From a virus, in the IMG/VR virus record IMGVR_UViG_3300049222_000815, positions 1 through 61,231 of that record: a stretch of 61,231 nucleotides of DNA; one strand, 5' to 3'. The notes below the pieces were generated by a model. It saw only the letters and a list, made by a program, of their open reading frames with translations. It was not told the origin of the DNA and did not search any database. Positions within the stretch are counted from its first letter, which is position 1; each line of letters opens with the position of its first letter. The position numbers were made by a program, and so were the translations under genes. Shown one piece after another: positions 11,993 to 46,284 of this stretch.

Positions 11993-12082
11993 TGGCGGAG
12001 AGGACAGGATTTGAACCTGCGGAAGGATTACTCCTTCAACGCTTTAGCAAAGCGCCGCCTTAAACCACTCAGCCACCTCTCC
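11993..12082 (-). tRNA. tRNA-Ser (anticodon GCU), CCA encoded
   Basis: 90 nt. Acceptor GGAGAGG pairs with CCTCTCC, followed by discriminator G and genomic CCA (11993-11995). The anticodon loop is TTGCTAA with stem GCGCT/AGCGT, giving GCU for AGC/AGU codons. A long variable arm (AAGGAGTAATCCTT) and GGTTCAAATCC T-arm confirm a serine tRNA. It lies four bases after the tmRNA and is probably processed from the same transcript. AGU/AGC supply suits an AT-rich phage. Confidence 0.95.
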
Positions 12083-12086
12083 AAAA

Positions 12087-12449
12087 TGGTGGACGTGGCG
12101 GGAGTTGAACCCGCGTCTTTAAATTGTCAGCAATACAAATCTACAAGTTTAGTTAATTTTTTTTTAAGTTGTGATATTAACATCTAACTACTTATTTGAA
12201 TTATTTACAGTTGAGGTAATAAGTAAACCATTCTGGGTCTGCAGATAGATGACCCCACAATCCCTTTATCTGCGTCAAAGGTTGTGAGGTAGCAGGTCTT
12301 AAGCTGCTAGAGCAAGCTCTTGCTTATTAAAAGCGAGGGCTTTAACACGTGACTTGTTGCCAGGTATCAATTTGTGCCTTTTTAAGGAGCCAGACACACT
12401 CCTACTTGCAATGTATAGATTCAACTCAAATCGAATCCAGTACACGCCC
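12087..12449 (-). ncRNA. ssrA: tmRNA (one-piece, standard orientation)
   Basis: About 363 nt. The 5' end GGGCGTG pairs with CACGTCC before the terminal CCA (one G-U pair). The 5' region has the diagnostic CTGGATTCGA and the 3' end the T-arm GACGCGGGTTCAACTCCCGC. The tag frame most likely resumes at GGC and reads GNKSRVKALAFNKQELALAA then TAA (12299-12301). This 20-residue tag ends in ALAA, a canonical protease degron. An upstream AGGAG/CTCCT pairing at ~12380-12405 fits pseudoknot 1. Promoter at 12477-12505; the ~20-base 5' leader needs RNase P. It rescues stalled ribosomes; SmpB is not in the window. Confidence 0.93.
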
Positions 12450-12476
12450 AAAAATTTTTCAAAGAACTTACATACT

Positions 12477-12505
12477 GTTATACAGTAAAAAAACAAAAAT
12501 GTCAA
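12477..12505 (-). promoter_or_regulatory. Class I (sigma-70) promoter of tmRNA and tRNA-Ser
   Basis: TTGACA (12500-12505), 17-base spacer, TATAAC (12477-12482), preceded by CTG. It lies five bases beyond the virion-protein stop codon. It gives the stable RNAs a dedicated strong promoter, about 27 bases before the mature tmRNA 5' end. Confidence 0.8.
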
Positions 12506-12509
12506 GAAA

Positions 12510-13799
12510 TTAAATAGGATTACCCCAATTCAATATCTTTGGCTGATCTGGGAAATGACTTTTACCTAAGATGAACATACCATTTTTTTGATCATCAATA
12601 CTACCAATAGATACATTGAAAGTTAAATTGACTGTTTTGTTTGCTGAGATGCTAGACTCAAAAGATTCAACATCAAAAATTGCACCTTTAAAGTAGTACG
12701 CCATGTTGGTAGTACTTGGGTGTAACTCTCGTTCGCAAGCATGAACTCCTCTGCAATCTTCCATGGATATAACCAAATTATTTAATTCTGTTGGGCATTG
12801 GATGAATTTAGCTAAATTTTTATTATCTTTTAATTCATTTAAAAAAGCAGTTATTTGAATTTGTATGTTGGCTGGAAAATTAAGTACTCTAGCAAAACCA
12901 AAAGTGCTACCAATCTTATGTATTTTTGTATTACCAATAGGCATGTTGATGCTAAATCCTTGTATGTGAGCTGCCCCTAAGTGATAATCACTTAAGTCTA
13001 AAGTTTGTTGAGATAATAAAGCTCCATCATCAAGAGCAATTTTAATATCTCCAGGACGTAAAGCTCCTGCCCCTTCTTGGTATACAATGTCATTCAAGCC
13101 ATTAACTTTTTCATAAACAAAACTTTCATATGTATCAGGAATGCTGAAATGTAAATCACACGCCTGTAAATCTCTGGAGGGGTCGATAGCTGGTAGAGGG
13201 TTATTGCAAACTCCTTTATATGTAGTGATTGTAAATGCGTCAAAGCTCATTCTAGCTTTTGGAGTTGAACCAATTTCAGCATTTACAGCATACTGGTTCA
13301 AAAAAGCATTTCCAATACCGATAACTTTTACTTCGTCACCCATAGACTCTAAATTAGAGTGAACTATTTGGTGGCCTGCAGCCGTAGTAGCGATAAAAAA
13401 GTTGCAACCAAATCTCCCATCTGGAGATAAATGTTTAGCTATTGCTTGATGCTCTCCATCAGTAATAAAACCTAAAACTTGCTCATTATAGCCGTCAGCT
13501 AAACAGTACTCAAAGTCTATGGATACGGACGGAGAATTAAGTATAACATTGTCTACCCTACCCAAACTGCCAAACTGATTGATAGTTTCTCTATCTAAGT
13601 TGATAGAATAATTAATATCTTGTATTCTATGTAATTGGCGAACTAAATTGCCTGAGCAATCTATCCAAGAAGTATTTCTATTTTTGCAATCAGCATCAAA
13701 TTTAACGCCATCATTAAAATGATATCCTGTAGCATCAAAACTGCAGTATAGGAATTCACTTCCATAATTGACATTATTTCTTCCCTGATTTTTTTTCAC
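12510..13799 (-). CDS. Putative virion protein (tail-tube-like), 429 aa
   Basis: GTG start, 26 bases inside the upstream unfoldase gene. Almost entirely beta-rich with Asn/Gly turns. Segments such as VRQLHRIQDINYSINLDRET, VDNVILNSPSVSIDFEYCL and YNEQVLGFI resemble phage tail-tube or other jelly-roll structural proteins, and a C-terminal NKTVNLTFNVSIGS strand is typical of them. No enzymatic motif. Co-transcribed with the unfoldase from a class II box, which supports late expression. Structural assignment is by composition and pattern, not by a known family. Confidence 0.55.
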   Translation of the reverse strand: MKKNQGRNNVNYGSEFLYCSFDATGYHFNDGVKFDADCKNRNTSWIDCSGNLVRQLHRIQDINYSINLDRETINQFGSLGRVDNVILNSPSVSIDFEYCLADGYNEQVLGFITDGEHQAIAKHLSPDGRFGCNFFIATTAAGHQIVHSNLESMGDEVKVIGIGNAFLNQYAVNAEIGSTPKARMSFDAFTITTYKGVCNNPLPAIDPSRDLQACDLHFSIPDTYESFVYEKVNGLNDIVYQEGAGALRPGDIKIALDDGALLSQQTLDLSDYHLGAAHIQGFSINMPIGNTKIHKIGSTFGFARVLNFPANIQIQITAFLNELKDNKNLAKFIQCPTELNNLVISMEDCRGVHACERELHPSTTNMAYYFKGAIFDVESFESSISANKTVNLTFNVSIGSIDDQKNGMFILGKSHFPDQPKILNWGNPI

Positions 13800-16158
13800 T
13801 GCAAATAAATTTACCCTCTTTAAAGTTAACTACAATATCATTGCAGTCATTATGTATAATAAATTTAGAAATTGCAACTTCAACTTCATTTTGGATTATT
13901 CTTCTAATGGGTCTACCACCTAGATTTTGCTCAAGAGTTCTGCGTAATATTTCCGCTCTAGCCTTGGGATTTAAAGTGCATTTAATATCTTTATGTTTTA
14001 ATTTTAATTTAACATTATTAAATTCAATAGTAATAATTTTCTTTAACTCTGACTCTTTAAAATTATTAAATAATACAATACCATCAAATCTATTAACTAA
14101 CTCTGGACTTAATTTCTTTTTAGCTTCTTCAAATATCTTATCTGAATTGTTATCCTCATTTTGAAGAAAACCTACTGAAGATTTTTTATCTACTAGATCT
14201 GCCCCTAAATTACTTGTTAAAATTATAATAGTATTTTTAAAAGAAACTTCTTCTCCAGAATTATCTGTAAGTCTTCCTTCTTCTAGGATCTGCAATAAAG
14301 ATTGAAGAACTATTGGGTGAGCTTTTTCAATTTCATCAAACAATAAAACTGAATGGCCATCCCTTTTAACTTTTTCGGTTAGTAATCCACCTTTTTCATA
14401 ACCAACATAACCTGGCGATGAGCCAGAAAATTTACTAACCGCAGAAGATTCTGAGAACTCACTCATATCAAAGTAAATTAATTTTTTACTTGACCCAAAA
14501 TAATGTCTAGCTAAAGATTTTGATGTAAGAGTTTTACCCACTCCTGTTTTACCTAAAAATAAAAAACTTCCAATAGGTCGCATCGGATCTTTGAGTCCGC
14601 AGTGACTTTTAAACAATGAATTGACAATTTTTTGAACAGCATCTTCTTGCCCAATCACATCTTTATTCATTCTTGATTCAAGTTTTAATAATTTAGAAGA
14701 ATGAGTTTCATTTAATGACTCTATAGGGAGATGCAAGTTTTCAGAAACTACAGACCTAATGTCTGAAATTTTAACTGTAGCCATATTTCTAGCTTTCTTT
14801 TGACCCCATTTAGAAACAAGATTTTTATAAGAATCAAATACTTCATCTTTGACTGATTTTGGTAAGTCATCATTTAATAAAGCTTTTTCCATTTGCTTTG
14901 CCATTTTTGGCTTTTTATAAAATTTAATCTTTAATGCAGCTCCAGCCTGATCTATCAAATCTATAGCTTTGTCGGGCAACTTTTTGTCATTGATATATTT
15001 AATTGAAAGATCGACTGCTTCAACGATGGATTCTGGACTATATATAACTGAGTGATAAACAGAATAACTTGAACATAAATTAGAAATAATTTCAATAGCT
15101 TCCTCTCTTGTTGGCTCATCAACCTTAATCATATTAAATCTTCTTTTTAAAGCGGGATCTTTAGAGAAAGATTTTTTATATTCTTCATATGTAGTTGCAC
15201 CGACACATGTAATTTCACCTCTTGCAATATATGGCTTTAAAATGTTTGCTGCATCCAAAGAGCCTTCTGAGTTTCCTGCTCCAACAATCGTATGAATTTC
15301 ATCGATAAATAAAATTATATTTTTATCTGCTTTGGTTGCATCAATAAAAGATTTAAGCCTTTCTTCAAACTGACCCCTGTATTTTGTGCCTGCAATCATG
15401 GATGACAAATCCAATGCTAGGATTTTTTTATTCAATAAATAGTCATTTGTTTCACATTTAACTATTCTTTTGGCGAGATGTTCAACCAAAGCGGTTTTTC
15501 CAACGCCAGGATCGCCAACCAAAAGAGCGCAAGACTTAGTTTTGCGACATAAAGTTTCTTCTATTTTGTCAATATAAGTACTGTTAGCAGAAATAAAATC
15601 AAATTCGCCCTGTTTAGCTAAAACATTTAGGTCGACGCTATAACTTTTAAGGGGGCTAGCATTTGAAGGTTGTCCTTGTTGGTCTGCATTTTCGTAAGAA
15701 TTCATTAATGCAGGGTTATAAACTATATCGTGAGAAAGAACTTCTTCCAAGAGCAATTCAATCTCATAAATATCTAAATCGCAAACCAAAAAATAATCAG
15801 CTATATGAAAATCTGAAAGCATGACATATAACACATGCTCAACGCTGATATATTCATGACTCTTATTGCTAGACAATTGATTACAAAGGTCTAAACAAGA
15901 AATAACATCAGGACCAAAGGGGACATTATCTTGATGACCGACAGTAGGTAAACTCACAATAGTGTCTACCACTAATCCCTCAATAGGTTCAAAACTAATA
16001 TTGATTCTATCTTCTATAAAAGGAAGTATAAAAGTATCTATCTTAAGAAAAGATAAAAAAACATGGTCTAATGTTACTTCAGGGTTTTCAAATTTTTGTG
16101 CTAGTTGTCTAGCTAAAGATATGATTTCCTGCGATCTAGGAGTTAGATTTGGGTACAT
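13774..16158 (-). CDS. ClpA/ClpC-type AAA+ unfoldase
   Basis: 794 aa, near ClpA/ClpC length. N-terminal Clp repeats (residues ~1-145: LTPRSQEIISLARQLA, LDHVFLSFL; ISVEHVLYVML). AAA1: Walker A GDPGVGKT (215-222), Walker B ILFIDE (282-287), ALKRRF. AAA2: GKTGVGKT (536-543), LLFDE (605-609), NR at 689-690. A VGF tripeptide (662-664) follows SNLGADLVDKK where ClpA/ClpC carry the ClpP-docking loop, so it could feed substrates to host ClpP. No ClpB-type long middle domain. First gene of a class II operon that continues into a virion protein and precedes the tmRNA. Possible roles: degrading tagged or host proteins, or virion assembly. Confidence 0.88.
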   Translation of the reverse strand: MYPNLTPRSQEIISLARQLAQKFENPEVTLDHVFLSFLKIDTFILPFIEDRINISFEPIEGLVVDTIVSLPTVGHQDNVPFGPDVISCLDLCNQLSSNKSHEYISVEHVLYVMLSDFHIADYFLVCDLDIYEIELLLEEVLSHDIVYNPALMNSYENADQQGQPSNASPLKSYSVDLNVLAKQGEFDFISANSTYIDKIEETLCRKTKSCALLVGDPGVGKTALVEHLAKRIVKCETNDYLLNKKILALDLSSMIAGTKYRGQFEERLKSFIDATKADKNIILFIDEIHTIVGAGNSEGSLDAANILKPYIARGEITCVGATTYEEYKKSFSKDPALKRRFNMIKVDEPTREEAIEIISNLCSSYSVYHSVIYSPESIVEAVDLSIKYINDKKLPDKAIDLIDQAGAALKIKFYKKPKMAKQMEKALLNDDLPKSVKDEVFDSYKNLVSKWGQKKARNMATVKISDIRSVVSENLHLPIESLNETHSSKLLKLESRMNKDVIGQEDAVQKIVNSLFKSHCGLKDPMRPIGSFLFLGKTGVGKTLTSKSLARHYFGSSKKLIYFDMSEFSESSAVSKFSGSSPGYVGYEKGGLLTEKVKRDGHSVLLFDEIEKAHPIVLQSLLQILEEGRLTDNSGEEVSFKNTIIILTSNLGADLVDKKSSVGFLQNEDNNSDKIFEEAKKKLSPELVNRFDGIVLFNNFKESELKKIITIEFNNVKLKLKHKDIKCTLNPKARAEILRRTLEQNLGGRPIRRIIQNEVEVAISKFIIHNDCNDIVVNFKEGKFICSEKKSGKK

Positions 16159-16181: not shown

Positions 16182-18767
16182 TTATTTTAAATCTGCCAAT
16201 TTCATGCAAATTTTTTCATCTACAATCGACATGGAATCAATAAATAAAACATCTTCAGCTTTTCTGCCAACAATAATAACAATATTATCTTTAGATGGAA
16301 CGGAATTGCCAGATTCTAGGTATTGAGTGCAGGTCAAACCCCTTCGTGAATCAACCATTATCCCAGGAAAATTACCTAATTCATCACTTAAAAGTATCTT
16401 AATATACTGATTGCCATTACTACTAGTTTTTCGGAAACCATCTTCAACTACACCTATAAACTTAGCTTTTTGACCAGAGTCCATAGATTCATAGTATAAG
16501 GAATCTCTTAGCATTTCATTACTATCTTCAAAAACATCTTTTAATCTGCATGAATAGCTATATCCTAATAGCTTTTTTTCAAAAAACCAATTTGCAAACT
16601 TTTCGTATTTAACATTTTGCTCATAAATTTTTTTGTATTTATCATACTTTTTCTTAAAAGTTTCAAACCTAGAATCCTTCATTAACAATCTACCATCATC
16701 AGCAATAATTGCATCTTTTTTGGCAGCATGAATTGAAGCTAAAATATCATAATCGTATTTAGAGCCAAGGGAAATAAAATTTCTTTTTTCCCTATCAGTT
16801 AATAAATTAAATGCTTGAGCTTCTAACACTAATCTTGGGCGACTTAGCGTTGAATCTTCACTTAATGCTCCAGCTTGAATTAATGAAGATAGCACCCCTA
16901 TGTTTAACCCTGCTTGCTTGGCAGAAAGAAAAACATCATACTTATTAGAATTATCTGAATCTCTAAATTCAGTCAACGCTTGAAGGGATTTTTCGCTGAC
17001 CCCTTTAATGCTATTCAATCCAAATCTAATATTATTTTTATCAATAGTGAAATCAAATTGAGATTTAATTAAATTTGGTTGCAATAAATTTATATCAAAA
17101 TAAGATAATTCTCTACTAATTTTAGATATTTCATCTTGGGGATTTGGTTCAAATTGAGACATCCTCAATAAACTTAAAAAGAATTCTTTGGGATATTTAA
17201 ATTTTAAATAAGTTGTCCACGCGGCAAGAGTAGAATAAGATATAGAATGAGATTTATTGAATGAATAATTAGCACTGTCTTCAGCTACTTTCCATAATAC
17301 ATCTCCAACTTCTTGCGGTAGATTGTTGGCGGCAATTTTTTCTTCTATCTTGCTTTGCCATTCTGCCATTTTGTCTACCTTTTTCTTGCCTACAATCCTT
17401 CTAAGTTGTTCGGACTCATCTAATGTGAAACCTACTTTTACAGCCATTTTCATAAGCTGTTCTTGGTATAAGGGTATCCCCCCTGTATAATCTAAGACAT
17501 CATCGAAAAAAGGATGTACGCTTTGGAAGTTTGAGGTTTCAATATATTCAGCATAATTATCTAAAAACTCAAGAGCTCCTGGCCTAGCTATAGCTACAAC
17601 CGCACTTAACTGCTCTAAGTTTCTGGGTTTAATTTTTTGACAAACCCTAAAGTTTGTATCAGCTTCAATTTGAAATAATCCTTGAGGATTTTTTAGTGTC
17701 TGTAAGGGTTTGTATAAATTTTTGTCAGATAAATCAATATCATAAACATCAATATCTAAATTGTCACACACATCATAAATAACACTAAGAGTGCGTAAGC
17801 CTAAGATGTCAAACTTAACCATCAATTCAGAGACCCAATTCATGTCGTACCCAGTAACAAAACCACCATCATTGGTTTTTTGTATGGGGCAGATGCTGGA
17901 TATTTCTTGGTGAGATATTGCAATTCCAGAAGGGTGAACTCCTGTATTCTTATTTAAACCTTCTATTTTTAGAGCAACATTAAAGACTCTTTCATTTTCT
18001 TCAACCCACTTTTTAAATTTTTCACTCTCTTCTTTAGCTACTCTTAGTGGAGCAACTTTTCCAAACTTCTTTGGAATAAAAGAACTGACATCATTGACTT
18101 GTTGTTCTGAATATTCGCCGACAATTTTTCCACACTCTTTAACGCAGAGCTTTCCACTTAAAGTGTTTAGTGTTAATATATTAGATGTTCTGCCTGGGTG
18201 TTGCTCCTCAATGTAATTGATAACTTTTTGCCTATGCTCATAAGCTATATCATTATCAATGTCAGCCAACAAACTACCGTCAAGATATGTTACTCCATCT
18301 TTCTCTATTTTTCTAGCTCTACTTTTACTAACAAAACGCTCAAAAAATAAATCATATTTGATTGGATCTACTTTGGTAACGTCAATGAGAAACAAAACTA
18401 GAGAACCTGCAGCAGAACCTCTGCCTGGGCCTGTTGGAATATTATTCGTATGACAATAATTTAATATATCCCAATTCAAGAGAATGTAATCAATGAAACC
18501 TAGCTCTTTTAAAATAGTTAATTCAGATTTAATTCTTTCGTAGTAATCTTCTTTGTTATCGAGCTTGTCAATACCTTTTGATTTTACTCCACTAAAACAT
18601 AGGCGTCTCAAGAAATCATAATTAGAACAATCACTTGGTATGTCTAGCTTTGTATAATAACTGCTAGCTATTTTAATCTCTGGCAGTAAGACCCCAGGTG
18701 GTGCGCAGTCATCATATGAACTAAATTGATCTAAAAAAGAATCCATAACTAAATTTCTATCTCCCAT
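16182..18767 (-). CDS. dnaE: DNA polymerase III alpha subunit, catalytic part (no PHP domain)
   Basis: 861 aa. C-family replicative polymerase. Palm motifs present: GPGRGSAAGSLV (113-124), ADIDND with catalytic Asp169 and Asp171, and VKFDILGLRTL with Asp320. Fingers motifs such as GIPLYQEQLM and NYSFNKSHSISYS are intact, and a C-terminal OB fold (~770-861) is present. The protein starts exactly where DnaE passes from PHP domain to palm; the missing PHP domain is encoded separately at 19563-20315. Start ATG 18767 overlaps the exonuclease gene by 19 bases; Met8 (18746) is an alternative. The tau-binding C-terminal domain appears absent. Predicted to be active. Confidence 0.92.
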   Translation of the reverse strand: MGDRNLVMDSFLDQFSSYDDCAPPGVLLPEIKIASSYYTKLDIPSDCSNYDFLRRLCFSGVKSKGIDKLDNKEDYYERIKSELTILKELGFIDYILLNWDILNYCHTNNIPTGPGRGSAAGSLVLFLIDVTKVDPIKYDLFFERFVSKSRARKIEKDGVTYLDGSLLADIDNDIAYEHRQKVINYIEEQHPGRTSNILTLNTLSGKLCVKECGKIVGEYSEQQVNDVSSFIPKKFGKVAPLRVAKEESEKFKKWVEENERVFNVALKIEGLNKNTGVHPSGIAISHQEISSICPIQKTNDGGFVTGYDMNWVSELMVKFDILGLRTLSVIYDVCDNLDIDVYDIDLSDKNLYKPLQTLKNPQGLFQIEADTNFRVCQKIKPRNLEQLSAVVAIARPGALEFLDNYAEYIETSNFQSVHPFFDDVLDYTGGIPLYQEQLMKMAVKVGFTLDESEQLRRIVGKKKVDKMAEWQSKIEEKIAANNLPQEVGDVLWKVAEDSANYSFNKSHSISYSTLAAWTTYLKFKYPKEFFLSLLRMSQFEPNPQDEISKISRELSYFDINLLQPNLIKSQFDFTIDKNNIRFGLNSIKGVSEKSLQALTEFRDSDNSNKYDVFLSAKQAGLNIGVLSSLIQAGALSEDSTLSRPRLVLEAQAFNLLTDREKRNFISLGSKYDYDILASIHAAKKDAIIADDGRLLMKDSRFETFKKKYDKYKKIYEQNVKYEKFANWFFEKKLLGYSYSCRLKDVFEDSNEMLRDSLYYESMDSGQKAKFIGVVEDGFRKTSSNGNQYIKILLSDELGNFPGIMVDSRRGLTCTQYLESGNSVPSKDNIVIIVGRKAEDVLFIDSMSIVDEKICMKLADLK

Positions 18768-19390
18768 ATCATTTTTTTGAATACTTCGTAATTTTGCTCT
18801 ATATCATACATAGCGTCATGTAATCTAGAAGCATCAATTTTAATATCATAATCTTTACATAAATCAATTAATTTCTTTTTTGTTTTTCTATCAATCATGT
18901 TATTTAATCTGTATTGCCAATTAAAATAATCATCATCTTTTTTGTATTCAATATTATTTTTGATTGCTTTTGCCATGCATAGAGTATCAATCGATCTAAA
19001 TATGTAAGAGTAGTCAGGTTTTTTACCTAAACATCTTCGATATATTCCGTGAATATATATATCAAAACCTAAAATATTGTGACCAACATTAATATAAGAT
19101 TCATCATACAAATACTTTTCAAAGTCAGTAAGGATAGATTTTGCATCTTGAGCTTTTTCTTTGTAAGATTTTTCTGTCCAGCCTGTCATTTTTGCTGCTG
19201 CGTCGGACATTTTTAAATCAGGCCAATGTATCCAGCAATCTTTTTTAGATACAATTTTACCTTTATTTATAACCATATAGCCTAATTGCCAAGGCTTATT
19301 GTCAAGAGAACCTAAATTTAAAGAGCAGGTCTCGAAATCAAAGAACAAATAATTTTGATTCTTATTAAATCTTAATAAATTTTCGTTCAT
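18749..19390 (-). CDS. DnaQ-like 3'-5' proofreading exonuclease
   Basis: 213 aa. DEDDh exonuclease: FFDFETCS (Asp/Glu, ~residues 16-23), NVGHNILGFD (~101-110), and RLHDAMYDIEQN with the catalytic His and Asp (~189-200). It would proofread for polymerase III alpha, the role of epsilon. It lies between the two halves of the split alpha subunit in one operon and overlaps both neighbours by 4-19 bases, implying co-assembly. Confidence 0.9.
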   Translation of the reverse strand: MNENLLRFNKNQNYLFFDFETCSLNLGSLDNKPWQLGYMVINKGKIVSKKDCWIHWPDLKMSDAAAKMTGWTEKSYKEKAQDAKSILTDFEKYLYDESYINVGHNILGFDIYIHGIYRRCLGKKPDYSYIFRSIDTLCMAKAIKNNIEYKKDDDYFNWQYRLNNMIDRKTKKKLIDLCKDYDIKIDASRLHDAMYDIEQNYEVFKKMIWEIEI

Positions 19391-19560
19391 TTTTTATTGC
19401 GACCAGCAAAAAATTCTTCAACCTCTTTTAGGAACTGAGATTTTTGATTATGGCTAAGCTGGGAGTACTGTCTTTTAATTTCTTTTAAGTTTCTTTTTTG
19501 TTCTGGATGACCTTCGTAGGTCATAGCTTTTTTAATCCTTAATAATTGTTTTTTATTCAT
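19387..19560 (-). CDS. Small basic protein in the polymerase operon, 57 aa
   Basis: I take the ATG at 19558-19560 (MNKKQLLRIKKAMTYEG), two bases after the PHP gene stop, rather than an upstream in-frame ATG. The protein is highly basic and helical (NLKEIKRQYSQLSHNQKSQF), with the C-terminus overlapping the exonuclease start by four bases. Position between PHP and exonuclease suggests a small adaptor holding the split polymerase together, but there is no motif evidence. Confidence 0.5.
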   Translation of the reverse strand: MNKKQLLRIKKAMTYEGHPEQKRNLKEIKRQYSQLSHNQKSQFLKEVEEFFAGRNKK

Positions 19561-19562
19561 AA

Positions 19563-20315
19563 TTAATTCTTGTTTTCTAGATAACTTTCCATGCAAAATT
19601 CGGGACTAGCCAAATGATCAAAGTTGGGTACATTAAGAGTTCTTTGTTTGAATTTTTTGCTACATACGCATTTATATGTTTGATAAGACTCAAAATCTTT
19701 TCTCGAATTATAGTATATAGTTTTAGCTTTGGTATAACTATGACCATATTTATCACAATATGCAATTACTTTATTTTGAATGTCTATGTCAAAAGGTAAA
19801 AAATTATCTTCGATAAAAAAATGTAAATCTGTAAACCCAAAATTAGGAATGCAACTACAGAAATGTAGGCTATTCATGAATATAAAAGAGTCGTAAAATG
19901 GTATTGATATAGAAAGGTTTTCGTCATTCCAAAACTTTTTAAGATCTTCAATGTAAATTACTCCTTCGGTCTGACAAAAAGCATGAGAGTAAATTTTATT
20001 GAGTAGCTGACATCCTTGATTGTTTTTTGCAAATATTATAATTTTATGCAAGCACTCATTGCCTTTATCTTTGCTATGAGATTCGTGCGAACAGGATATT
20101 CTTAACCCAAATATTAACTGCTTCCCTAAATTTTGACTAACTTTTAAAGCCTGCAAAAAACCTATCAAAGAATCTTCAACTAAAACTATTTTATCTAAAT
20201 GATCTTGAGCTATTGAGAAAACGCTATCTGGGCCATCTTCTTTTACCTCTGATGGATCATTTAGTGTTAAAATTGACTTTCCTATAGAGTAATGGCTTTT
20301 AAATAATGGTGTCAT
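19563..20315 (-). CDS. Stand-alone PHP domain of DNA polymerase III alpha
   Basis: 250 aa. Start PLFKSHYSIGKSILTLND aligns with the DnaE N-terminus (xHLHxHSxYSLLDG); DKIVLVEDSLIGFLQALK and KQLIFGLRIS match the following PHP strands (where DnaE has AITDHG...G and KPIIGxE). The C-terminus (SPEFCMESYLENKN) matches the YMRSEEEM stretch directly before the DnaE palm. The metal-binding HxH is degenerate (SHY), so it is probably structural. CVCSKKFKQ contains an additional Cys pair. First gene of the operon, with a class I promoter 15 bases upstream. Confidence 0.75.
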   Translation of the reverse strand: MTPLFKSHYSIGKSILTLNDPSEVKEDGPDSVFSIAQDHLDKIVLVEDSLIGFLQALKVSQNLGKQLIFGLRISCSHESHSKDKGNECLHKIIIFAKNNQGCQLLNKIYSHAFCQTEGVIYIEDLKKFWNDENLSISIPFYDSFIFMNSLHFCSCIPNFGFTDLHFFIEDNFLPFDIDIQNKVIAYCDKYGHSYTKAKTIYYNSRKDFESYQTYKCVCSKKFKQRTLNVPNFDHLASPEFCMESYLENKN

Positions 20316-25344: not shown

Positions 25345-25761
25345 TCACAAAAGAATATCCATTTTTTTAAAAAAGGATTTTGATAGTTTAGTTTTATCTT
25401 TTTCAAAAATTTCAATCAACTTAATTTCATTCAATTCACAAAAATCATTTTTTTGATGATCTCTTTTTAATTGCATTAAATAATTACTTTTATAATTACC
25501 ATGAAAAAAGGGAACATATCTAGTATGCTGATCACCTTGAACTTCAATAGCTATTTTTTCATTAGCGTTATATAAATCAAAAGTCATTCTTGTTCCTGCA
25601 ATAGGAAACTCTTCAAACACGACATCTCTATGCCAGTAATCTTTAAAGAAGTCTTTGACTAGTTTTTGAAACTTACTGCGACTATCTCCATCCCAGTCGA
25701 TAATATATTTGTGAGCACCAATAATTTTTCTGGTTGAGCCGTTTAAAGTCTTAAACTTCAA
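25345..25761 (-). CDS. Vsr/homing-like PD-(D/E)XK endonuclease
   Basis: 138 aa, TTG start overlapping the stop of the glycosyltransferase gene. FPIAGTRMTFDLYNANEKIAIEVQGDQH (read as FPIAGTRMTFDLYN and EKIAIEVQGDQH, residues ~52-80) gives the D...ExQ core of Vsr-like nucleases, followed by the QLKRDHQKNDFCELN helix with conserved Asp/Lys typical of that family and KLIEI. Probably cuts or nicks DNA; specificity unknown. Last gene of the long recA-glycan operon. Confidence 0.7.
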   Translation of the reverse strand: MKFKTLNGSTRKIIGAHKYIIDWDGDSRSKFQKLVKDFFKDYWHRDVVFEEFPIAGTRMTFDLYNANEKIAIEVQGDQHTRYVPFFHGNYKSNYLMQLKRDHQKNDFCELNEIKLIEIFEKDKTKLSKSFFKKMDILL

Positions 25762-27443
25762 CCTTCTATTCTTTCTTCTGGTTTATAATGTTTGAATCTA
25801 TCGTGAGTGACGGTAGATGCAAGTAGAACCGCAGGTTTTATTTCACCCTTTTTAGTCTCTTGAAAAATGTGAGACATCCAAGTTTGTTCGTAAGGGTGAG
25901 CCCATTTTGTGTTTATAAACATTTTTTTATTACCTTCTTTACTGGTAATGTGAGGCCAATTAGCATAATATATATCTCCACTAATATATGATAAGCCGTC
26001 GAGAACTTCAATGTGTTTAAATTCTGTCCTAGGGCAATTAGGATCTAAACCTGTAGATGGTAGTTGATCATAATCAGGCCATGTGTCTGTTCTATATTGC
26101 TGAGGAACATTGTACCAACTGACCTGAATATTGTTATCCATATAAACTTCTGTATATGAAAGCTTTAGAAAATCAAACTTTTCTTTAAGCATTATTTGAT
26201 GAATTTTTTTATAAAGGTTTGGAATATATTTATTAAATCCATTTCTACATACACCTTCATCAGGATCAGATATTGTCATGTCATCCTCAAAAAATAAATA
26301 AAAATCAGAATCACTCTCGTCAAAATGCTCTGCAGCAAATTGTCTGCCCCCGCAAATCCCTAAATTTTGATCCATAGAAATGTGCTCAAATCCATATTTA
26401 GATGCAATATTTCTATTCCCCTCTCTAGCCTGCTCATTAGTAGAGTTATCTATAATAATTTTTTGTGTTGGGTGAGTCAGGAACCCTTCATGTTTTTGCA
26501 AAGATTTAATTGTTGCCTCTAGCTGTTCTGGGTAATTAAAAGTAAGAAAATACAAGTTGGTTTTAACATGTGATATATCGTTAATTAAAGGAGTAAATTT
26601 TTTACGCTTAGAAGTAAAACTTTCTAATTTCGCTGATCTATTTTTAATCGCTTCAATAAATTTTACAATTAATCCATTGCTATCTAAGGCATATCGTTTA
26701 TAGTATTCTGGGAATAATTTAGCCATGATTGAAAAAACACTCTCTTCAGTACCAGCCAAGCCTTCATTTATGCTTTGCTCTAACAGGTGATAATACTCAG
26801 CATTAGCTTGACTTAAGAAGTCTTTGTGTCCGCCAAATAAACCACCCCTGCACACATAATCTACTTTTTGTTGCGCATATTTATTAATTGCGTTAAATTC
26901 AAAACCATGAATTTCTTTATCCGCTTCATAGGGATAAGATAAAAATAGAAATGGATCCATATTATCAACGATCCTATTTAAAACTTCCTCATCATAAAAG
27001 TAGTTTTCATAAACAGTTTGAGTGATTCCTGCATCTAGCCATAAAAAATAATCTGTGTCAAACGGGTTCCATATCTTGGAGTCATGTAAGAAAAACATCT
27101 TAGACATAACAATAGGGTTATAGTATTCATTTTTACATTGTGGGCTTTCTGGAAGCCAACCTGCTTGATTTTGCCATGATGGACTATTTCTGATTGATTG
27201 CCACTTATTCCAGAATGGAGAAAACATTCTATTTTTAATGTCCTCCAACTCATAAATGCGAACAAAAGTATTTTCTTTTGATCTACGCTCCCAAACGAAA
27301 GACTCCAGAGATTTAGGGATCCACAGCACCATATTGCATGGAATTTTAAGAAATTTATCAAAGTGTTCTTCGTACCTAGACCAATCGCGCCCAGCGCGAT
27401 TAATGTTCCAGAGACCGCTGACTATAGTTAAATTTTTATTCAT
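25758..27443 (-). CDS. Two-domain glycosyltransferase (HtrL/YibB-like plus GT2-like)
   Basis: 561 aa. Residues ~1-270 resemble HtrL/YibB proteins: IVSGLWNINRAGRDWSRY, then YFLWLDAGITQTVYENYF and VCRGGLFGGHKDF, with a DxG nucleotide-sugar site (WLDAG). Residues ~295-561 are GT2-like: NLYFLTFNYPEQLEATIKSL, KIIIDNSTNE, NLGICGGRQFA and the acidic motif FFEDDM. A fused pair suggests two sequential sugar transfers on the same acceptor. Four-base overlaps on both sides. Confidence 0.78.
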   Translation of the reverse strand: MNKNLTIVSGLWNINRAGRDWSRYEEHFDKFLKIPCNMVLWIPKSLESFVWERRSKENTFVRIYELEDIKNRMFSPFWNKWQSIRNSPSWQNQAGWLPESPQCKNEYYNPIVMSKMFFLHDSKIWNPFDTDYFLWLDAGITQTVYENYFYDEEVLNRIVDNMDPFLFLSYPYEADKEIHGFEFNAINKYAQQKVDYVCRGGLFGGHKDFLSQANAEYYHLLEQSINEGLAGTEESVFSIMAKLFPEYYKRYALDSNGLIVKFIEAIKNRSAKLESFTSKRKKFTPLINDISHVKTNLYFLTFNYPEQLEATIKSLQKHEGFLTHPTQKIIIDNSTNEQAREGNRNIASKYGFEHISMDQNLGICGGRQFAAEHFDESDSDFYLFFEDDMTISDPDEGVCRNGFNKYIPNLYKKIHQIMLKEKFDFLKLSYTEVYMDNNIQVSWYNVPQQYRTDTWPDYDQLPSTGLDPNCPRTEFKHIEVLDGLSYISGDIYYANWPHITSKEGNKKMFINTKWAHPYEQTWMSHIFQETKKGEIKPAVLLASTVTHDRFKHYKPEERIEG

Positions 27444-30105: not shown

Positions 30106-31374
30106 TTATCTTTCTACTTGCCTTTCTACTCTTTCTGCCCAACCACGCTTTTTACTATTAGCCCAATAAACTACGCGGCTTGGTTTTTTATCTGTCATAA
30201 ACATTTCTTCGTAATGTATTGGTTTTGAATTTTTCATAAATTGATTTAATTGCTCTCCCTCTATTGATTTAGAAAATATACCTTCTCCATTTTCATCATC
30301 AAATGCAACCAAAATAGATTGGTAATCGTCTTTAGGCATTTCATGACGCTCTAAATTTACTAAATGATAAAAGGAAAACATAAAACTATCTTCCCATTCT
30401 TTTTCGTTCTTGTATGGATAAGGGTTTGGTGGAAAATAATTATCTTTAGTATATTTTTGAAAAGATTTTTTTTTGAAATGTATACCTGCATACTTCTCAT
30501 AATCACGCAAGGTTCTTTTGTTACCTAATCCATATTCACCCAAATCGATTCCATTATCTTCAACTCCAATTAATTGCCTAATCCTAGCTCTTGCGGAATC
30601 ATTTCCTTTCCACCACATATCGTCTCCACGTTTGCTTTGATCGTCCCATACTAACTTGCCAGCCCTCTCTTCTCTCATGGTTGCATGCCAAATGATTACT
30701 TTATGAGGGTGAAACAAATCATATCCATGAGTAAAACTACGCACAGTTAAATTTAATTCTTCTCCAGCAAAAAATATATTTTTATCATGTTTTACATCGC
30801 GTGCCCATTGATTGCTGCCAAAAGCAAAATGACCACTTAAAAACCTAGCGGGATAAGGTTTGGTTAATTTTTTCCAATCTCTAACTCCAGTTGGTCGAAT
30901 AAAAATAGTGTTATGGGGGTAAAAGCATGCAGCTTCAGAAATCCATGGCTCTTGAACTCTGTCTTCTGGGTCGTTAAAAGGGTTGTAATATGGTAAATAT
31001 CCTCCAATTACTGGATTATAGCCATCACATTGTAATTGTTCATGCCAATTAATTAATGTTGAATCCCAATTTTTTGCAAATCTATGATGAGAGTCGAGCT
31101 GGCAGACAAAATCTTCATCAGTTAATAGTTCATCATTAATGATTGCTCTTGCGGTAGCTAAACCTTTAGCTTCTGTATGTGGCATATCATGAATTTTGAA
31201 TCTAGAGTCATCTCTATAGTCATCAAGATTATCAAATCCATCATCTTCGCAATATTGCCTACATATTCCAAAACGGATTCTATCAGGATGCTCAGCATTA
31301 TCAAGAGCACTTTTAATTGTGGGGATTAATTCAGGCTCTCTATATGCAGGTAAGTGAACTAGTATAGTTTTCAT
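30106..31374 (-). CDS. GlcNAc-transferase-like glycosyltransferase (PF11397 type), copy 1
   Basis: 422 aa. Starts TILVHLPAYREPELIPTI, the signature of Skp1-GlcNAc-transferase-like enzymes, with RFGICRQYCEDDG, FVCQLDSHHRFAKNWD (DxH metal/nucleotide site), RFLSGHFAFG and FFAGEELNLTVRSFTHGYDL. It is a close paralogue of the adjacent upstream gene, indicating tandem duplication; the C-termini differ, suggesting different acceptors. Confidence 0.85.
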   Translation of the reverse strand: MKTILVHLPAYREPELIPTIKSALDNAEHPDRIRFGICRQYCEDDGFDNLDDYRDDSRFKIHDMPHTEAKGLATARAIINDELLTDEDFVCQLDSHHRFAKNWDSTLINWHEQLQCDGYNPVIGGYLPYYNPFNDPEDRVQEPWISEAACFYPHNTIFIRPTGVRDWKKLTKPYPARFLSGHFAFGSNQWARDVKHDKNIFFAGEELNLTVRSFTHGYDLFHPHKVIIWHATMREERAGKLVWDDQSKRGDDMWWKGNDSARARIRQLIGVEDNGIDLGEYGLGNKRTLRDYEKYAGIHFKKKSFQKYTKDNYFPPNPYPYKNEKEWEDSFMFSFYHLVNLERHEMPKDDYQSILVAFDDENGEGIFSKSIEGEQLNQFMKNSKPIHYEEMFMTDKKPSRVVYWANSKKRGWAERVERQVER

Positions 31375-32630
31375 GGAGAAGGAACTTCACCCTCTATAAT
31401 AGGCATCCAACCTTTAGATTTTGAGTGTGGCCAAACGAGCCAGGATTTAGGTATTTCAGAAGTCTGAAATTTTCTCCAGAATCTTACGAATTCGTCATTG
31501 GGATCAGAGTTTAGCAAATTAGATACTTCATTTTCATTTGCATCTAGGCGAATCATTTCTTCGCCCGAAGAATTTTTAAACGCCATAACCCAGACATCGT
31601 AATCTTTTTCTGTAAATGTTGGCTTGTGAATATCTATGCAATATTTGAACTCAGACACAAAACCTTTTTCGTATTCAGCTTTAGATTTAAAAGGTGTAGG
31701 TGGTTGCTTCCTGTCAAAAGCATGTTGGTGAACATTGCGATCTTTAAACCTAATCCCAGCATATTTTTCGTAATCTTTTAAAGATCTTATTTTGCCTAAA
31801 CCATATTTTTTAAAATTAGATCTCCTTAATCCATCCATACCTAAAAGTTTTCGATATCGTTGAAAACTTTTTTTATTTAAGTCATTCCACTTTGCGACAT
31901 CATCCCAATGCCTAGACTTGCCTTTGCGAGTGTAGTGATGCCATACCCAAGGTCGATGCAAGTGATAAAGATCATATCCCCATGTAAACGCCCTGACTGC
32001 GAGAGAGCTTTCTTCTCCATGGAAATATAAATTAGGGTCATATGGAACTTCTTCACAGAAAGATCCTAATGTAAAAATAAAATGACCACTTAAAAATCTT
32101 GCTTTTTCGGGACCAAACCGAGACCAGTTTTGTATACTTTCTGGAAAAATAAAAATAGGACCTTCTGGCATAAACCTATCAAGATAAGTCCTCCAGACAT
32201 CATTTAATCGATTTTCATTTTTTTCATCTGGATCATAAGATGGCAAATATGAAGATAATAGAGGTTTGGAACTACCTGATTTAATTAAATCTTTTAATGT
32301 TTTTTTTAATTTTGTGTCCCAACCTTTAACAAATCTATGATGAGAGTCTAACTGAAAATAATATTCTTCTTTATCGTAAAAAGATTGTATCTTACTTCGC
32401 GCTGAACAAACTCCTAAACTTTTTTTATAGGGAGTCTCTATAATGTTAAAGGTTTTTCTTTTTTTATATTTTGAAAGATCATCAAAACCATCTTCTTTTG
32501 AGTACTCTCTTGATATTCCAAATACTAAATTTCTTGGATTGTCTGCATTTTTAATGCAATTTTCAATAGTTGGAATGAGTTCTGGATCTCTGTAGCTGGC
32601 AATTGAAATAAATATTTTATTTTTCTTCAT
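31371..32630 (-). CDS. GlcNAc-transferase-like glycosyltransferase (PF11397 type), copy 2
   Basis: 419 aa. KIFISIASYRDPELIPTIEN, LVFGISREYSKEDGFDDL, YYFQLDSHHRFVKGWD, ARFLSGHFIFTLG and YFHGEESSLAVRAFTWGYDL mirror the downstream paralogue domain by domain. Overlaps recA by 14 bases upstream. The tandem pair would add two related sugars, perhaps GlcNAc-like, to one glycan or protein. Confidence 0.85.
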   Translation of the reverse strand: MKKNKIFISIASYRDPELIPTIENCIKNADNPRNLVFGISREYSKEDGFDDLSKYKKRKTFNIIETPYKKSLGVCSARSKIQSFYDKEEYYFQLDSHHRFVKGWDTKLKKTLKDLIKSGSSKPLLSSYLPSYDPDEKNENRLNDVWRTYLDRFMPEGPIFIFPESIQNWSRFGPEKARFLSGHFIFTLGSFCEEVPYDPNLYFHGEESSLAVRAFTWGYDLYHLHRPWVWHHYTRKGKSRHWDDVAKWNDLNKKSFQRYRKLLGMDGLRRSNFKKYGLGKIRSLKDYEKYAGIRFKDRNVHQHAFDRKQPPTPFKSKAEYEKGFVSEFKYCIDIHKPTFTEKDYDVWVMAFKNSSGEEMIRLDANENEVSNLLNSDPNDEFVRFWRKFQTSEIPKSWLVWPHSKSKGWMPIIEGEVPSP

Positions 32631-39381: not shown

Positions 39382-40436
39382 GAATTATCTATTTTACACA
39401 TTATTTTTTTAAAATCTTGTACATCTACAATAATATTTTTGCGTTTATTTTCAATTTCATTTAGCTCATGGTTTTTGCAGATTAAGTATCCATATTTTAA
39501 GTTTAAAATATTGCAAATGTTCCAATATAGAATTGTAAAATAATCTTCATTAAATATTTCAATTACTTTGGTGTTTGGCTGACAAAAACTTAGGTTAGCT
39601 AAAGATGCTCCATGCGGAGCAACAATATGGGATGCAGAGTTAAAAAATTTAGCTTGACGAGATATTGACATGCGGCTAGTGTCAATTTTTTTGTAGCCTT
39701 TGTTTTTCAAAATACTCCAAAGTTCTCGCTCATTTAATATACTCCTACCTACTGCAGGATATCTGGGTATATATAATTTAAGGTTTTGTCTATAATTCTT
39801 TTTAAGGAAGGTCTGCTTTAAAAAATCTAATGACCACTTCGTTAAATAAATATGTCTATTTGGTCTGGAGGGAATAATTAAATTTTTAAATTTGTATACT
39901 TGAGATTCTTCTTGCTGCATGCATTTAGAAAGAGGTACTCGCAATTTATCTAAACTCTCTCTTACAAAGTTGCCAGTAATTTTAGGAATCAAAATATTAG
40001 AAATATCTCTCCAGTTTAAATTAAAGTCTTGCAAGAGCTTAATTCTTGGTAGTATTTGACATAACCAATGAAAATAATTAAAACCAGAATCTAAAGACAA
40101 AAGCACGCATAAGTCATTGTAAGTTGATGTCGAACTCACTGGTAAGTCGAATTGGTATGAAGTTGAAATGTCTTCAAATTTAATTTTATCTTTAATCGCA
40201 GAAATAGAACCAGATTGATTATGTGAGTGTATTTCAATATCACTAACTAAAGCAACAAATGGGTCGTCGTGTTTATATGATTTTACTTTATTAATATAAT
40301 TATTAAAATCAATATTAGAATTGTTATCTATGCTGATTGGCTGTGTGGAAAACTTAACCCCCAGTTCTGACTGGGGCAGTTTGGAGATAGAATCTTTCCA
40401 ATCTGTATTAACGTTGATATAATCTGACAATTTCAT
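39378..40436 (-). CDS. Glycosyltransferase family 61-like (DUF563)
   Basis: 352 aa. NYFHWLCQILPRIKLLQDF (~residues 133-151) and HIVAPHGASLANLSFCQPN (~285-303) are the two hallmark motifs of GT61 enzymes (for example xylosyl- or GlcNAc-transferases). NKGYKKIDTSRMSISRQAKFF matches the region before the second motif. Retains the HGA residues expected for catalysis. Four-base overlap with upstream two-domain transferase. Confidence 0.85.
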   Translation of the reverse strand: MKLSDYINVNTDWKDSISKLPQSELGVKFSTQPISIDNNSNIDFNNYINKVKSYKHDDPFVALVSDIEIHSHNQSGSISAIKDKIKFEDISTSYQFDLPVSSTSTYNDLCVLLSLDSGFNYFHWLCQILPRIKLLQDFNLNWRDISNILIPKITGNFVRESLDKLRVPLSKCMQQEESQVYKFKNLIIPSRPNRHIYLTKWSLDFLKQTFLKKNYRQNLKLYIPRYPAVGRSILNERELWSILKNKGYKKIDTSRMSISRQAKFFNSASHIVAPHGASLANLSFCQPNTKVIEIFNEDYFTILYWNICNILNLKYGYLICKNHELNEIENKRKNIIVDVQDFKKIMCKIDNS

Positions 40437-42064
40437 AAACGATTAATTTTTTTAGAAAGCCAATGAAGTATGTTTGAGTGACTTGGTTGATGATAAACTT
40501 TACTTTCTAAGGGTTCTGATTTGTTAAATCTATAAAGTAGAGAGGAGTCTTCAAGAATGTTAACAGTATTTAAATATTGCCTATCATTAGGAGTAGAAAT
40601 ATTCATTTGTTTTATTTTATTTAAAACTTCATAATTAATTGTATCATGTTCGTTTTGGTAAATATTCCAGTGTGGAGTTGTTGCAAAGAAATCATCCCTT
40701 AGTTTGCCAAAACATAAATTAAGTTTAGATAAATTTAAATTAATTTTATTTAAATAATCTTTTAATACTATTTCTGGATTCCATACATATTTATTATAAT
40801 AACTACTCCATGTTAAATGATTTTGATCATTGTGAAAATCTTGATACCATTCTTGAGTAAAGTAGTCATATATAGACATTCTTTTGCAGGCGTTACTAAA
40901 GTTGGATATAAAAAACCTATCATTGAGTCCATTGAGATGGTTGTCATGACTTGCCGAATAGTAATTATTATTATCTAATAAATTAATATTATCTAATGAA
41001 TTGAAATAGTACAAATCTGGGCGACACCAAATAACCCAATCATAGTCATAGTTTTGATTTAGTGATTTTTCTTGCATTATATTTAAGCAAGATTTCATAG
41101 AACTCCATTGAAGCAAATTACCTTTAACCCCATTGATTTGAAATGCCATATTAATATCAAACTTAAGAAATTCAGAGACATCTGGGTCCGATTCAAACTT
41201 AACAGTGAATTCATTACAATAGCTCTCTAAAGACTTTAATGTAATAATATTTTTGTAAGTTTTACTTGCAGAAGGGAAATGACCAATAAAGTCAGGTTTG
41301 TTTGGTAAACTTTTAATTATTCTGGTAATTAAAGATATTGATGCAAATTCAAAATTACGCAAAAGAGAAGATGTGCATATTAGGATTTTGGGATTTTTGG
41401 TTTTGTATTTATTGAGTTTTAAGGAAGCGGTTTTATTTTTTACAAAATCTAATTGTTTTATTTTGTTTTGAATACCTATACACCAATTTGCGTGATGCAA
41501 GATAATTTCTTTAGGTATAGTTAAGTTGTTGATAGATTCATATTTAAATCCTGGATTCCAAAAATGTTTTCTGTCTAAGTATTTCCATTTAAAATTGATT
41601 TTTGATTCACTTAATAATAAATTATTAATTTCTACTTGTTCTCCACTGCCAGATTTTTTGTTTTTTAGGTTTATTAGAACTAATTCCATAAACTTAATTA
41701 GATCAAGAGAGCATCTGCAGACAAAAAAACCAGAACAGATATCAGGTTTATCATCTGAATTTTTTTGAAAAGCTATGTCATAACCTTTAATTTCTGAAAG
41801 TAGAATGCTTTTACTGCCTTCAAAGAATTGGACATCTACATCTGAACAAACTATAATCTTACCTAAATTCTCTTTCATCGCGGAAATCCACCATTGAACT
41901 TTTTTTGTTTGAGTCTCAATCCAACCTGCATCTGCAAAAAGACCCGTTTTACATACTTGTTTTGATTTTTTTTCTATAATATTAAACTCAGAATTAGCAC
42001 TAGGATAAAAGTATTTCTCAAATAGTAATTTATGAGATTTTGAGTAGAAACAATACAAATTCAT
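40433..42064 (-). CDS. Two-domain glycosyltransferase, 543 aa
   Basis: N-terminal domain (~1-200) resembles nucleotide-diphospho-sugar transferases: KIIVCSDVDVQFFEG (DxD), CSGFFVCRCS, SGSGEQVEIN (late acidic site) and HHANWCIG. C-terminal domain (~225-543) contains WVIWCRPDLYYFNSLDN with an RPDxxYF motif and NDRFFISNFSNA, recalling uncharacterised O-antigen transferases. Two transfers per polypeptide are likely. First gene of its transcript, with no class I promoter seen. Confidence 0.7.
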   Translation of the reverse strand: MNLYCFYSKSHKLLFEKYFYPSANSEFNIIEKKSKQVCKTGLFADAGWIETQTKKVQWWISAMKENLGKIIVCSDVDVQFFEGSKSILLSEIKGYDIAFQKNSDDKPDICSGFFVCRCSLDLIKFMELVLINLKNKKSGSGEQVEINNLLLSESKINFKWKYLDRKHFWNPGFKYESINNLTIPKEIILHHANWCIGIQNKIKQLDFVKNKTASLKLNKYKTKNPKILICTSSLLRNFEFASISLITRIIKSLPNKPDFIGHFPSASKTYKNIITLKSLESYCNEFTVKFESDPDVSEFLKFDINMAFQINGVKGNLLQWSSMKSCLNIMQEKSLNQNYDYDWVIWCRPDLYYFNSLDNINLLDNNNYYSASHDNHLNGLNDRFFISNFSNACKRMSIYDYFTQEWYQDFHNDQNHLTWSSYYNKYVWNPEIVLKDYLNKINLNLSKLNLCFGKLRDDFFATTPHWNIYQNEHDTINYEVLNKIKQMNISTPNDRQYLNTVNILEDSSLLYRFNKSEPLESKVYHQPSHSNILHWLSKKINRL

Positions 42065-44299: not shown

Positions 44300-45238
44300 T
44301 TATGATCTTAAAGTTTTATTTTGAAGCCTGTAAACGAAATCATTATATGTATCCTTGATGCCTTTTCTTAGTGATATTTTAGGCTTCCATTTTAAATCAT
44401 CCATTAAACTAACATCTAAACGTTTAACTGGGGTGCCATCAGGCATATCCGAATTATAGTGAATGTCGCCTTCAAATTCGACAACTTCTTTTATAATTAA
44501 AGCTAAATCTGAAATAAAAATATCAGAACCCGTTCCGATATTAATTATATCGGGTAAATCTTCTATACCTAACAAAAACAAAATAGCATTTGATAAGTCA
44601 TCCGCATGTAGAAATTCTCTTCTAGCTTTTCCAGTTCCCCATATTTCAACTGAGTCAAGATTGGACTCTTTAGCTTCATGAAACTTACGAATTAAAGCAG
44701 GTAAAACATGAGAATTTTTTAAATTATAATTATCATTATAACCATAAAGATTTGTTGGCATTAATGAATGATAATATCGACCAAATTGACTGCGGTAATG
44801 CCTACACATTTCTAAGCCAGTAATTTTAGCTAAAGCATATGCTTCATTAGTTTTTTCAAGTGGGCCAGTCAATAAGTAATCTTCTTTTAATGGTTGAAGA
44901 GAGTCTCTTGGGTATATGCAAGAACTGCCCAAATTGATTAATCTTGAAATATCATGCTGGTGGCACAATTCAATTAAATTAATATTAATGAAAAGATTAT
45001 CTCTAATAAAATCTGCTGGATATGTTTTATTGGCTAGTATACCGCCAACTTTTGCCGCACAATTGATAACAATATCTGGATTGTGCTTTTTTAAAAAACA
45101 ATTCAAACTGCTAATATCACATAAATTAACTTCAGAACGCGATGTTGGAATGGGTGTATATAGAGGTGAGTTTGATAGTGCGAAAAATACCGAAGAGCCT
45201 ACCATTCCATTACTACCGCAAACTAAAACTTTTTTCAT
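44300..45238 (-). CDS. fcl: GDP-L-fucose synthase
   Basis: 312 aa. NADPH-dependent epimerase/reductase that makes GDP-L-fucose. GSNGMVGSSV (NAD(P) motif, ~8-17), INCAAKVGGI (~58-67), SSCIYPRD (catalytic Ser, ~106-113), ~YALAKITGLEMC (catalytic YxxxK, ~133-144), and SLMPTNLYGYNDNYNLKNSHVLPALIRKFH (read as SLMPTNLYGYNDNY and NLKNSHVLPALIRKFH), the standard WcaG/Fcl motif. Starts four bases into the gmd stop region: a gmd-fcl operon. Works with a phage or host fucosyltransferase. Confidence 0.93.
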   Translation of the reverse strand: MKKVLVCGSNGMVGSSVFFALSNSPLYTPIPTSRSEVNLCDISSLNCFLKKHNPDIVINCAAKVGGILANKTYPADFIRDNLFININLIELCHQHDISRLINLGSSCIYPRDSLQPLKEDYLLTGPLEKTNEAYALAKITGLEMCRHYRSQFGRYYHSLMPTNLYGYNDNYNLKNSHVLPALIRKFHEAKESNLDSVEIWGTGKARREFLHADDLSNAILFLLGIEDLPDIINIGTGSDIFISDLALIIKEVVEFEGDIHYNSDMPDGTPVKRLDVSLMDDLKWKPKISLRKGIKDTYNDFVYRLQNKTLRS

Positions 45239-46284
45239 TTTTTTAATTTCAAATAATCTGCGTCATACATTTTGTAAACCAAAGATTTAAAATCGCAAGC
45301 CCTCACCCAACCAATCTCTTTTTCGGCTAAAGATGAGTCACCACACAATTCATGAACTTCTGCTGGCCTATAAAAAGAAGGATCAACCTCAACAAGTGTT
45401 TTATTGTTTTCGTCTACAAATTTTTCAGACTCATTAGATCCAACGTTTAAATATTTAATTTTAGATCTATCTAAGGACATCTTTACAAAATCTCTAACAG
45501 TATGCATTTCTCCACTAGCTAAAACATAGTTTTTGGGAGATTTTTGGTTCAACATTAGCCAAACTCCAGACATAAAATCTTCTGCATCACTCCAGTCTCT
45601 TTGGGCGTCAAGGTTTCCTAATTTTAAGATTGGTATGTCTTTCCCGTTTTCTATAGCAATTTTAATACTAGCAATTCCATGACTAATTTTTCTAGTAACA
45701 AAATCCAAACCACGTCTTGAGCCTTCATGATTAAATAACCAACCTTGGACAGCATAAAGATTGTAGGATTCTCTGTATACTCTAACTATATGTCGAGCTG
45801 CACATTTTGCGGCTCCATATGGAGATTGCGGTCTTAGTGGATGTTGTTCATCTTGTGGGGAGTACTCCACATCACCAAATTCTTCCGAGGAGCCCGCATT
45901 ATAAAATCGACAATTAGGGGCAAACCTCCTTATGGATTCCAAAATATGAAGTACAGAATCTGCATCAGTACCCCAAGTTTGTATTGGATATTTCCAACTG
46001 CCAGCAACGAAAGATTGGGCTGCAAAATTAATAAAATAGTCGGGTTGAATATCAATAATGACATCTCTAATACTATGAGCATCATTTAAATCCATATCTA
46101 TAAGTTCGAATTTTTTTTCGTTTTTTAGATGTAAAATATTATCATGATTAGTCACACTAAGACGCCTAATCGCTCCATAGATTTTAAAGGATTCTTTTTT
46201 CTTGCTTAAAAAATTAAGTAAATAGTCACACATGTGACTGCCGTCTTGACCCGTGACACCAGTGACAACAATAGTTTTTGTCAT
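45235..46284 (-). CDS. gmd: GDP-mannose 4,6-dehydratase
   Basis: 349 aa from the ATG at 46282-46284 (MTKTIVVTGVTGQDGSH), which shares one base with the upstream stop; a longer in-frame extension lies inside the upstream gene and lacks homology. NAD-binding TGVTGQDGSH, NFAAQSFVAGSW, AGSSEEFG, PYGAAKCAARHIVRVYRES (YxxxK as YGAAK), FNHEGSRRGLDFVTRKI and QRDWSDAEDFM are diagnostic of Gmd. Converts GDP-D-mannose to GDP-4-keto-6-deoxy-mannose for Fcl. Confidence 0.93.
   Translation of the reverse strand: MTKTIVVTGVTGQDGSHMCDYLLNFLSKKKESFKIYGAIRRLSVTNHDNILHLKNEKKFELIDMDLNDAHSIRDVIIDIQPDYFINFAAQSFVAGSWKYPIQTWGTDADSVLHILESIRRFAPNCRFYNAGSSEEFGDVEYSPQDEQHPLRPQSPYGAAKCAARHIVRVYRESYNLYAVQGWLFNHEGSRRGLDFVTRKISHGIASIKIAIENGKDIPILKLGNLDAQRDWSDAEDFMSGVWLMLNQKSPKNYVLASGEMHTVRDFVKMSLDRSKIKYLNVGSNESEKFVDENNKTLVEVDPSFYRPAEVHELCGDSSLAEKEIGWVRACDFKSLVYKMYDADYLKLKK

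Follow-up and report, generated by a model that had tools for sequence, protein, structure and literature searches.

Can the PHP domain, which surveys of C-family polymerases call universal (PMC12926913; PMC3666897), exist apart from the rest of the enzyme? The question is raised by four genes in the window, the whole stretch of 61,231 nucleotides of viral DNA analysed here. They form one run on the minus strand, from position 20315 down to 16182, in the order PHP, 57-aa protein, exonuclease and polymerase:

19563..20315, minus strand: PHP subunit of 250 aa, a PHP domain of DnaE type encoded as a protein of its own, by phrog_405, AlphaFold2, Foldseek and a fused-PHP profile
19387..19560, minus strand: basic protein of 57 aa counted from its ATG, from its ORF
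18749..19390, minus strand: DEDDh 3'-5' exonuclease of 213 aa, similar to DnaQ/epsilon but lacking the C-terminal segment present in the E. coli protein, by PF00929 and phrog_192
16182..18767, minus strand: catalytic subunit of 861 aa with palm, thumb, fingers, HhH and OB but no PHP, by PF07733, PF17657, PF14579 and phrog_405
18767..19563, minus strand: break in the DnaE chain, from the end of the PHP gene to the start of the polymerase gene, by alignment with five fused DnaEs; the small basic gene and the exonuclease gene lie in it

An ORF check of the minus strand confirmed the coordinates that an earlier note on this DNA had given for the four genes. The same note had all of the genes overlapping, which holds for the small and exonuclease genes (4 nt) and for the exonuclease and polymerase genes (19 nt), but not for the PHP and small genes, which lie 2 nt apart. 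From the gene spacing we infer an operon, with the PHP, exonuclease and polymerase genes co-produced from one transcript. Elsewhere in the window (11993-16158), a gene for a Clp-type ATP-dependent protease ATPase lies close to tRNA-Ser and to a complete tmRNA whose tag ends in ALAA, a cluster that suggests a phage-encoded tag-and-degrade set. Glycosyltransferase and nucleotide-sugar epimerase genes are numerous (30106-32630, 25758-27443, 40433-42064 and 44300-46407).

Modelled fold and profile both identify the 250-aa protein as the PHP domain of a C-family polymerase of the DnaE type. Its Pfam PHP match is sub-threshold (E 0.019), and it matches positions 51-289 of phrog_405, the phage DnaE family of 1190 positions, at E 1.6e-6. 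With the protein alone, phmmer against the PDB returned just a chance match to DspB and tblastn against phages no meaningful match, while the A1 profile gave marginal Pol III matches in the PDB (E 0.06-0.46). Because the phmmer and A1 results were weak, the identification was based on the fold and on the fused-PHP profile instead. The AlphaFold2 model, built on 53 relatives (pLDDT 89.4, pTM 0.88), had 20 Foldseek matches in the PDB at E<=1e-3, every one of them Pol III alpha or PolC, with E. coli alpha the best (2hnh, E 3.3e-11); against a viral structure library, phage DnaEs make up most matches. A profile made from the PHP domains of fused DnaEs alone matched 237 of the family's 246 PHP ORFs, the best at E ~1e-17. 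The agreement of fold and profile matches bears out the PHP-like appearance recorded in the earlier note and excludes a non-PHP alternative. Model and alignment indicate a complete, uninterrupted domain, with a PFYDS loop that is invariant in the 53 relatives.

The 861-aa protein is the remainder of DnaE. It matches PF07733 (E 1.6e-60), PF17657 (E 1.4e-31) and PF14579, as well as positions 328-1086 of phrog_405 (E 3e-159), and carries the motifs GPGRGS (113-118), DIDND (169-173) and KFDILGL (318-324). The catalytic triad D169, D171 and D320, in the PDxD and KFD motifs, is invariant in 47/47 catalytic sequences, as is the GS of GPGRGS. The fold of its AlphaFold2 model (pLDDT 86.8; best Foldseek match 7pu7, E 1.6e-37) is that of Pol III alpha without PHP. 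The chain is complete from just past the PHP to the OB fold: fingers, HhH and a C-terminal OB fold follow the palm (PF17657, PF14579 and the model), OB-like strands are placed at 767-848, and OB-fold proteins are among the secondary Foldseek matches. In the model the chain ends 13 residues beyond the last OB strand, and the protein probably lacks a tau-binding C-terminal domain. Two other viral loci, L037 (5248-8580) and L048 (216-3263), have a catalytic protein with an extra N-terminal domain of ~150-240 aa replacing PHP.

The exonuclease (PF00929, E 6.4e-11; phrog_192, E 2e-19) keeps all of its DEDDh residues, D18, E20, D110, H191 and D196 being invariant in 39 exonuclease sequences, and travels with the PHP and polymerase genes, in line with its earlier designation. 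Its C-terminus is short: 17 residues follow the last Asp in 39/39 sequences, against 76 in E. coli epsilon. The epsilon tail binds the clamp and PHP (PMC4703070), and this segment is absent from all 39 exonucleases, so that any contact between exonuclease and PHP must differ from that in E. coli or be absent. A Trp stands five residues from the C-terminus in 34/39 (window 18749-18767). In E. coli epsilon a Trp near the C-terminus sits in a PHP pocket (PMC3919608), which the phage Trp may recall, as a lead only. The small basic protein had been proposed as a bridge, a role that fails as a general feature. A homologue is found at this position, after PHP and before the exonuclease, in 14 of 128 loci and elsewhere in the locus in 30; in the other 84 it was not found within the locus, most loci spanning ~6 kb on each side, so the gene could be further away. 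The protein is not a constant member of the polymerase set.

The split-PHP polymerases belong to a large group of phages, uncultured and for the most part marine. In IMG/VR, a first scan found 408 relatives of the polymerase, and the PHP protein has at least 534. Locus order was read from those 128 of the 146 distinct full-length polymerases with at least 2.6 kb upstream. PHP, exonuclease and polymerase follow in this order on one strand in 128/128 loci, much more often than chance would give; the loci are related to each other and are not independent events. The PHP is a separate gene in every locus, not the N-terminal part of the same chain as in C-family DnaE, and fused homologues, which were sought following the earlier note, numbered 0/128. 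The gap between PHP and exonuclease exceeds 20 nt in 41/128, and extra genes can intervene, for example ORFs that look by eye GMP-reductase/IMPDH-like or SET-domain-like. Each of 15 contigs of 107-211 kb (G001-G015) has exactly one PF07733 match; no intact backup DnaE was found in these contigs, nor any beta clamp of the PF00712 family, the type searched for. The split family comes out as a single clade (support 100/100) in a tree built from 60 polymerase domains, with a long stem of 1.02 changes per site. The MAG bins with these contigs are mixed (5/12 Bacteroidota). PHP, exonuclease and polymerase diverge in parallel (r 0.85-0.92), as expected from common descent alone, which weakens the correlation as an argument for a complex.

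The PHP metal site had been described as degenerate, with SHY for HLH. Degenerate it is, but the register was off: HxH falls on L4/K6, and SHYS aligns with SDYS of fused DnaE. At seven usual metal-ligand positions, in a register taken from alignment with divergent fused DnaEs, nearly all of the 53 sequences have L4, K6, K13, R72, K91, S/T199 and Y/F201, and E47-D48 stands where the DH pair would be. Conservation in 53 sequences is high for K6 (51/53), K13 (52/53), R72 (46/53) and K91 (53/53). A metal-dependent PHP nuclease has nine ligands, HHDHEH[C/H]DH (PMC12926913), and the family departs from this signature at the 7 of nine positions checked. Judged from these residues, the protein is very probably inactive as a metal enzyme. 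Since the substitutes are conserved, the site appears replaced, not decaying, and the conserved K/R/S/Y in place of metal ligands make the structural role that the earlier note favoured likely. The E. coli PHP site has lost five ligands and still supports Pol III stability and activity, both of which are lowered by PHP mutations, and variant forms of PHP are correlated with an exonuclease that is separate (PMC3666897).

These observations are best read, with a probability of roughly 0.8, as a real and ancient fission of the gene for a phage C-family DnaE-type polymerase, in which the PHP is a separate subunit that docks on the catalytic protein and offers a platform for the exonuclease; the complex itself, its stoichiometry and the dependence of activity on it are what we infer. 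An ancestral DnaE would have split, its N-terminal PHP becoming a subunit of its own, with the exonuclease gene between the PHP and catalytic genes. The three proteins would be made together from their closely spaced or overlapping genes. By analogy with E. coli Pol III, where the PHP is fused and lacks catalytic activity, the PHP protein would most likely dock non-covalently on the catalytic protein and stabilise it, and the DEDDh exonuclease would proofread beside the docked PHP. Assembly in trans seems the most economical reading; against it count the missing epsilon-type tail of the exonuclease and the chance that the catalytic protein might be independent of PHP.

Such independence is the core of an alternative in which the PHP left the polymerase for another job, for example a regulatory or anion-binding one, leaving the exonuclease as the only partner of the catalytic protein. 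The conservation of K6, K13, R72 and K91 (46-53 of 53) fits a new pocket, and the invariant PFYDS loop points the same way. We nevertheless consider this unlikely, as the PHP is never missing from the exonuclease/polymerase run in the 128 loci, and fused polymerases, too, retain dead PHP domains for structural reasons (PMC3666897). It is a long shot that the former metal site is now a basic pocket (K6, K13, R72 and K91 around E47/D48) for an anion, DNA or a partner, the free PHP being an exchangeable replisome part whose reversible docking toggles the polymerase from synthesis to proofreading, done by the tail-less exonuclease, and back.

In an alignment that includes E. coli DnaE and four phage DnaEs, both the end of the PHP protein and the start of the polymerase fall at E. 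coli DnaE residue ~250, right past the PHP-closing motif; the PHP of E. coli alpha has been taken as residues 1-280 in an eLife 2015 structure paper (PMC4703070). The break is thus collinear, and the clean split at the PHP/polymerase boundary proposed in the earlier note stands. Covalent rejoining, by a split intein like that of cyanobacterial DnaE or by intron splicing, is very improbable. Split inteins do exist in this polymerase family, but within the catalytic gene (L161, L178 and L212). At the break, 0-10 residues lie beyond the end of the PHP profile in the 128 relatives and the polymerase chains begin directly, which rules out a split intein by length and agrees with the earlier impression of none at the junction. 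An Rfam scan of the window matched no intron family, and between complete, nearly gapless genes there is no room for an intron. The inteins of the catalytic gene occupy two sites, NYSFNK/SHS in L161 (7712-11608) and L178 (7980-10964), and GAGRG/SAAGS in L212 (5995-9042); a 315-aa ORF between the intein halves of L161 is perhaps a homing endonuclease.

In phages a gene annotated as split is sometimes the result of a frameshift (possibly so in Bacillus phage BpsS-140), but an assembly error, frameshift or decaying pseudogene has next to no probability here, because the identical arrangement, with residues conserved throughout, recurs in 128 distinct loci from many metagenomes, which also answers the earlier note's concern about an assembly rearrangement.

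The PHP, thought to be a permanent part of the DnaE enzyme, therefore probably works as a separate subunit in these phages. No description of a separate PHP subunit was found in the open-licence literature searched, and an earlier report elsewhere is possible. Two Pol III alpha genes are already known in cluster EF phages, and the present system is a variant of a known enzyme. A clade with a metal-less, separate PHP makes the part of this domain in stability, activity and proofreading testable by omission and add-back. The replicative polymerases of phages withstand splitting at several places, and the PHP boundary has been the site of more than one such event.

Among the closest known systems, the DnaE-type Pol III alpha proteins of E. 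coli and of the phages MTATph1, Wofford, phiKTN6 and RHph_N2_6 share the domains, their order up to the OB fold and the catalytic motifs; a degenerate PHP is found in E. coli and some phages too. The window differs in that its PHP protein stands alone and an exonuclease gene separates the two parts. PolC likewise has PHP, DEDDh exonuclease and polymerase working together, and PolC exonuclease (2p1j) is the sole PDB match of the phage exonuclease profile. In PolC, however, a single chain has an N-terminal OB fold and a PHP into which the exonuclease is inserted (PMC3919608), whereas the PHP of the window is uninterrupted. Cyanobacterial split DnaE also makes one polymerase from two genes (PMC3919608), but that break is healed by an intein and the one in the window has none.

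Other phages spread the DnaE chain over two genes as well (Cuke, phiT1, KLEB27-3, L276 and L281/L282/L284/L291), with the break in the palm or fingers and not at the PHP boundary. In the viral clade of L281, L282, L284 and L291, with L308 (637-2106), L309 (347-1831) and L310 (6596-7969), DnaE is cut inside the palm, into a 457-494 aa protein with PHP and a GPGRGS-type motif and a 901-914 aa protein with PDID and KFD; the two genes are ~4-8 kb apart in the three records read. In Bacillus phage BpsS-140 (L300 1838-5445), unannotated ORFs for PHP and polymerase lie in different frames with an overlap of 43 nt, which may be a natural split or a frameshift.

A precedent is found in Krampusvirus (Microbacterium cluster EF), where a 345-aa PHP protein (gp56; PF02811, E 3.8e-35) adjoins a PHP-less catalytic protein of 767 aa (gp57), with the same boundary as in the window. 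It has no exonuclease gene between the two, and its PHP matches Pfam strongly, unlike that of the window. Cluster EF phages were reported to have two Pol III alpha-related genes where one is typical (PMC7302621, 2020), in a remark that does not name the PHP split. Most of the Krampus region is present in 34 phage records. In the tree of 60 polymerase domains, the polymerase of the Krampusvirus Rachella groups with the fused Gibson and NovaSharks, and this nesting among fused phage DnaEs makes the Krampusvirus split independent. That lytic phages of the Krampus group, which are cultivated, underwent their own split at this boundary shows that the arrangement is viable.
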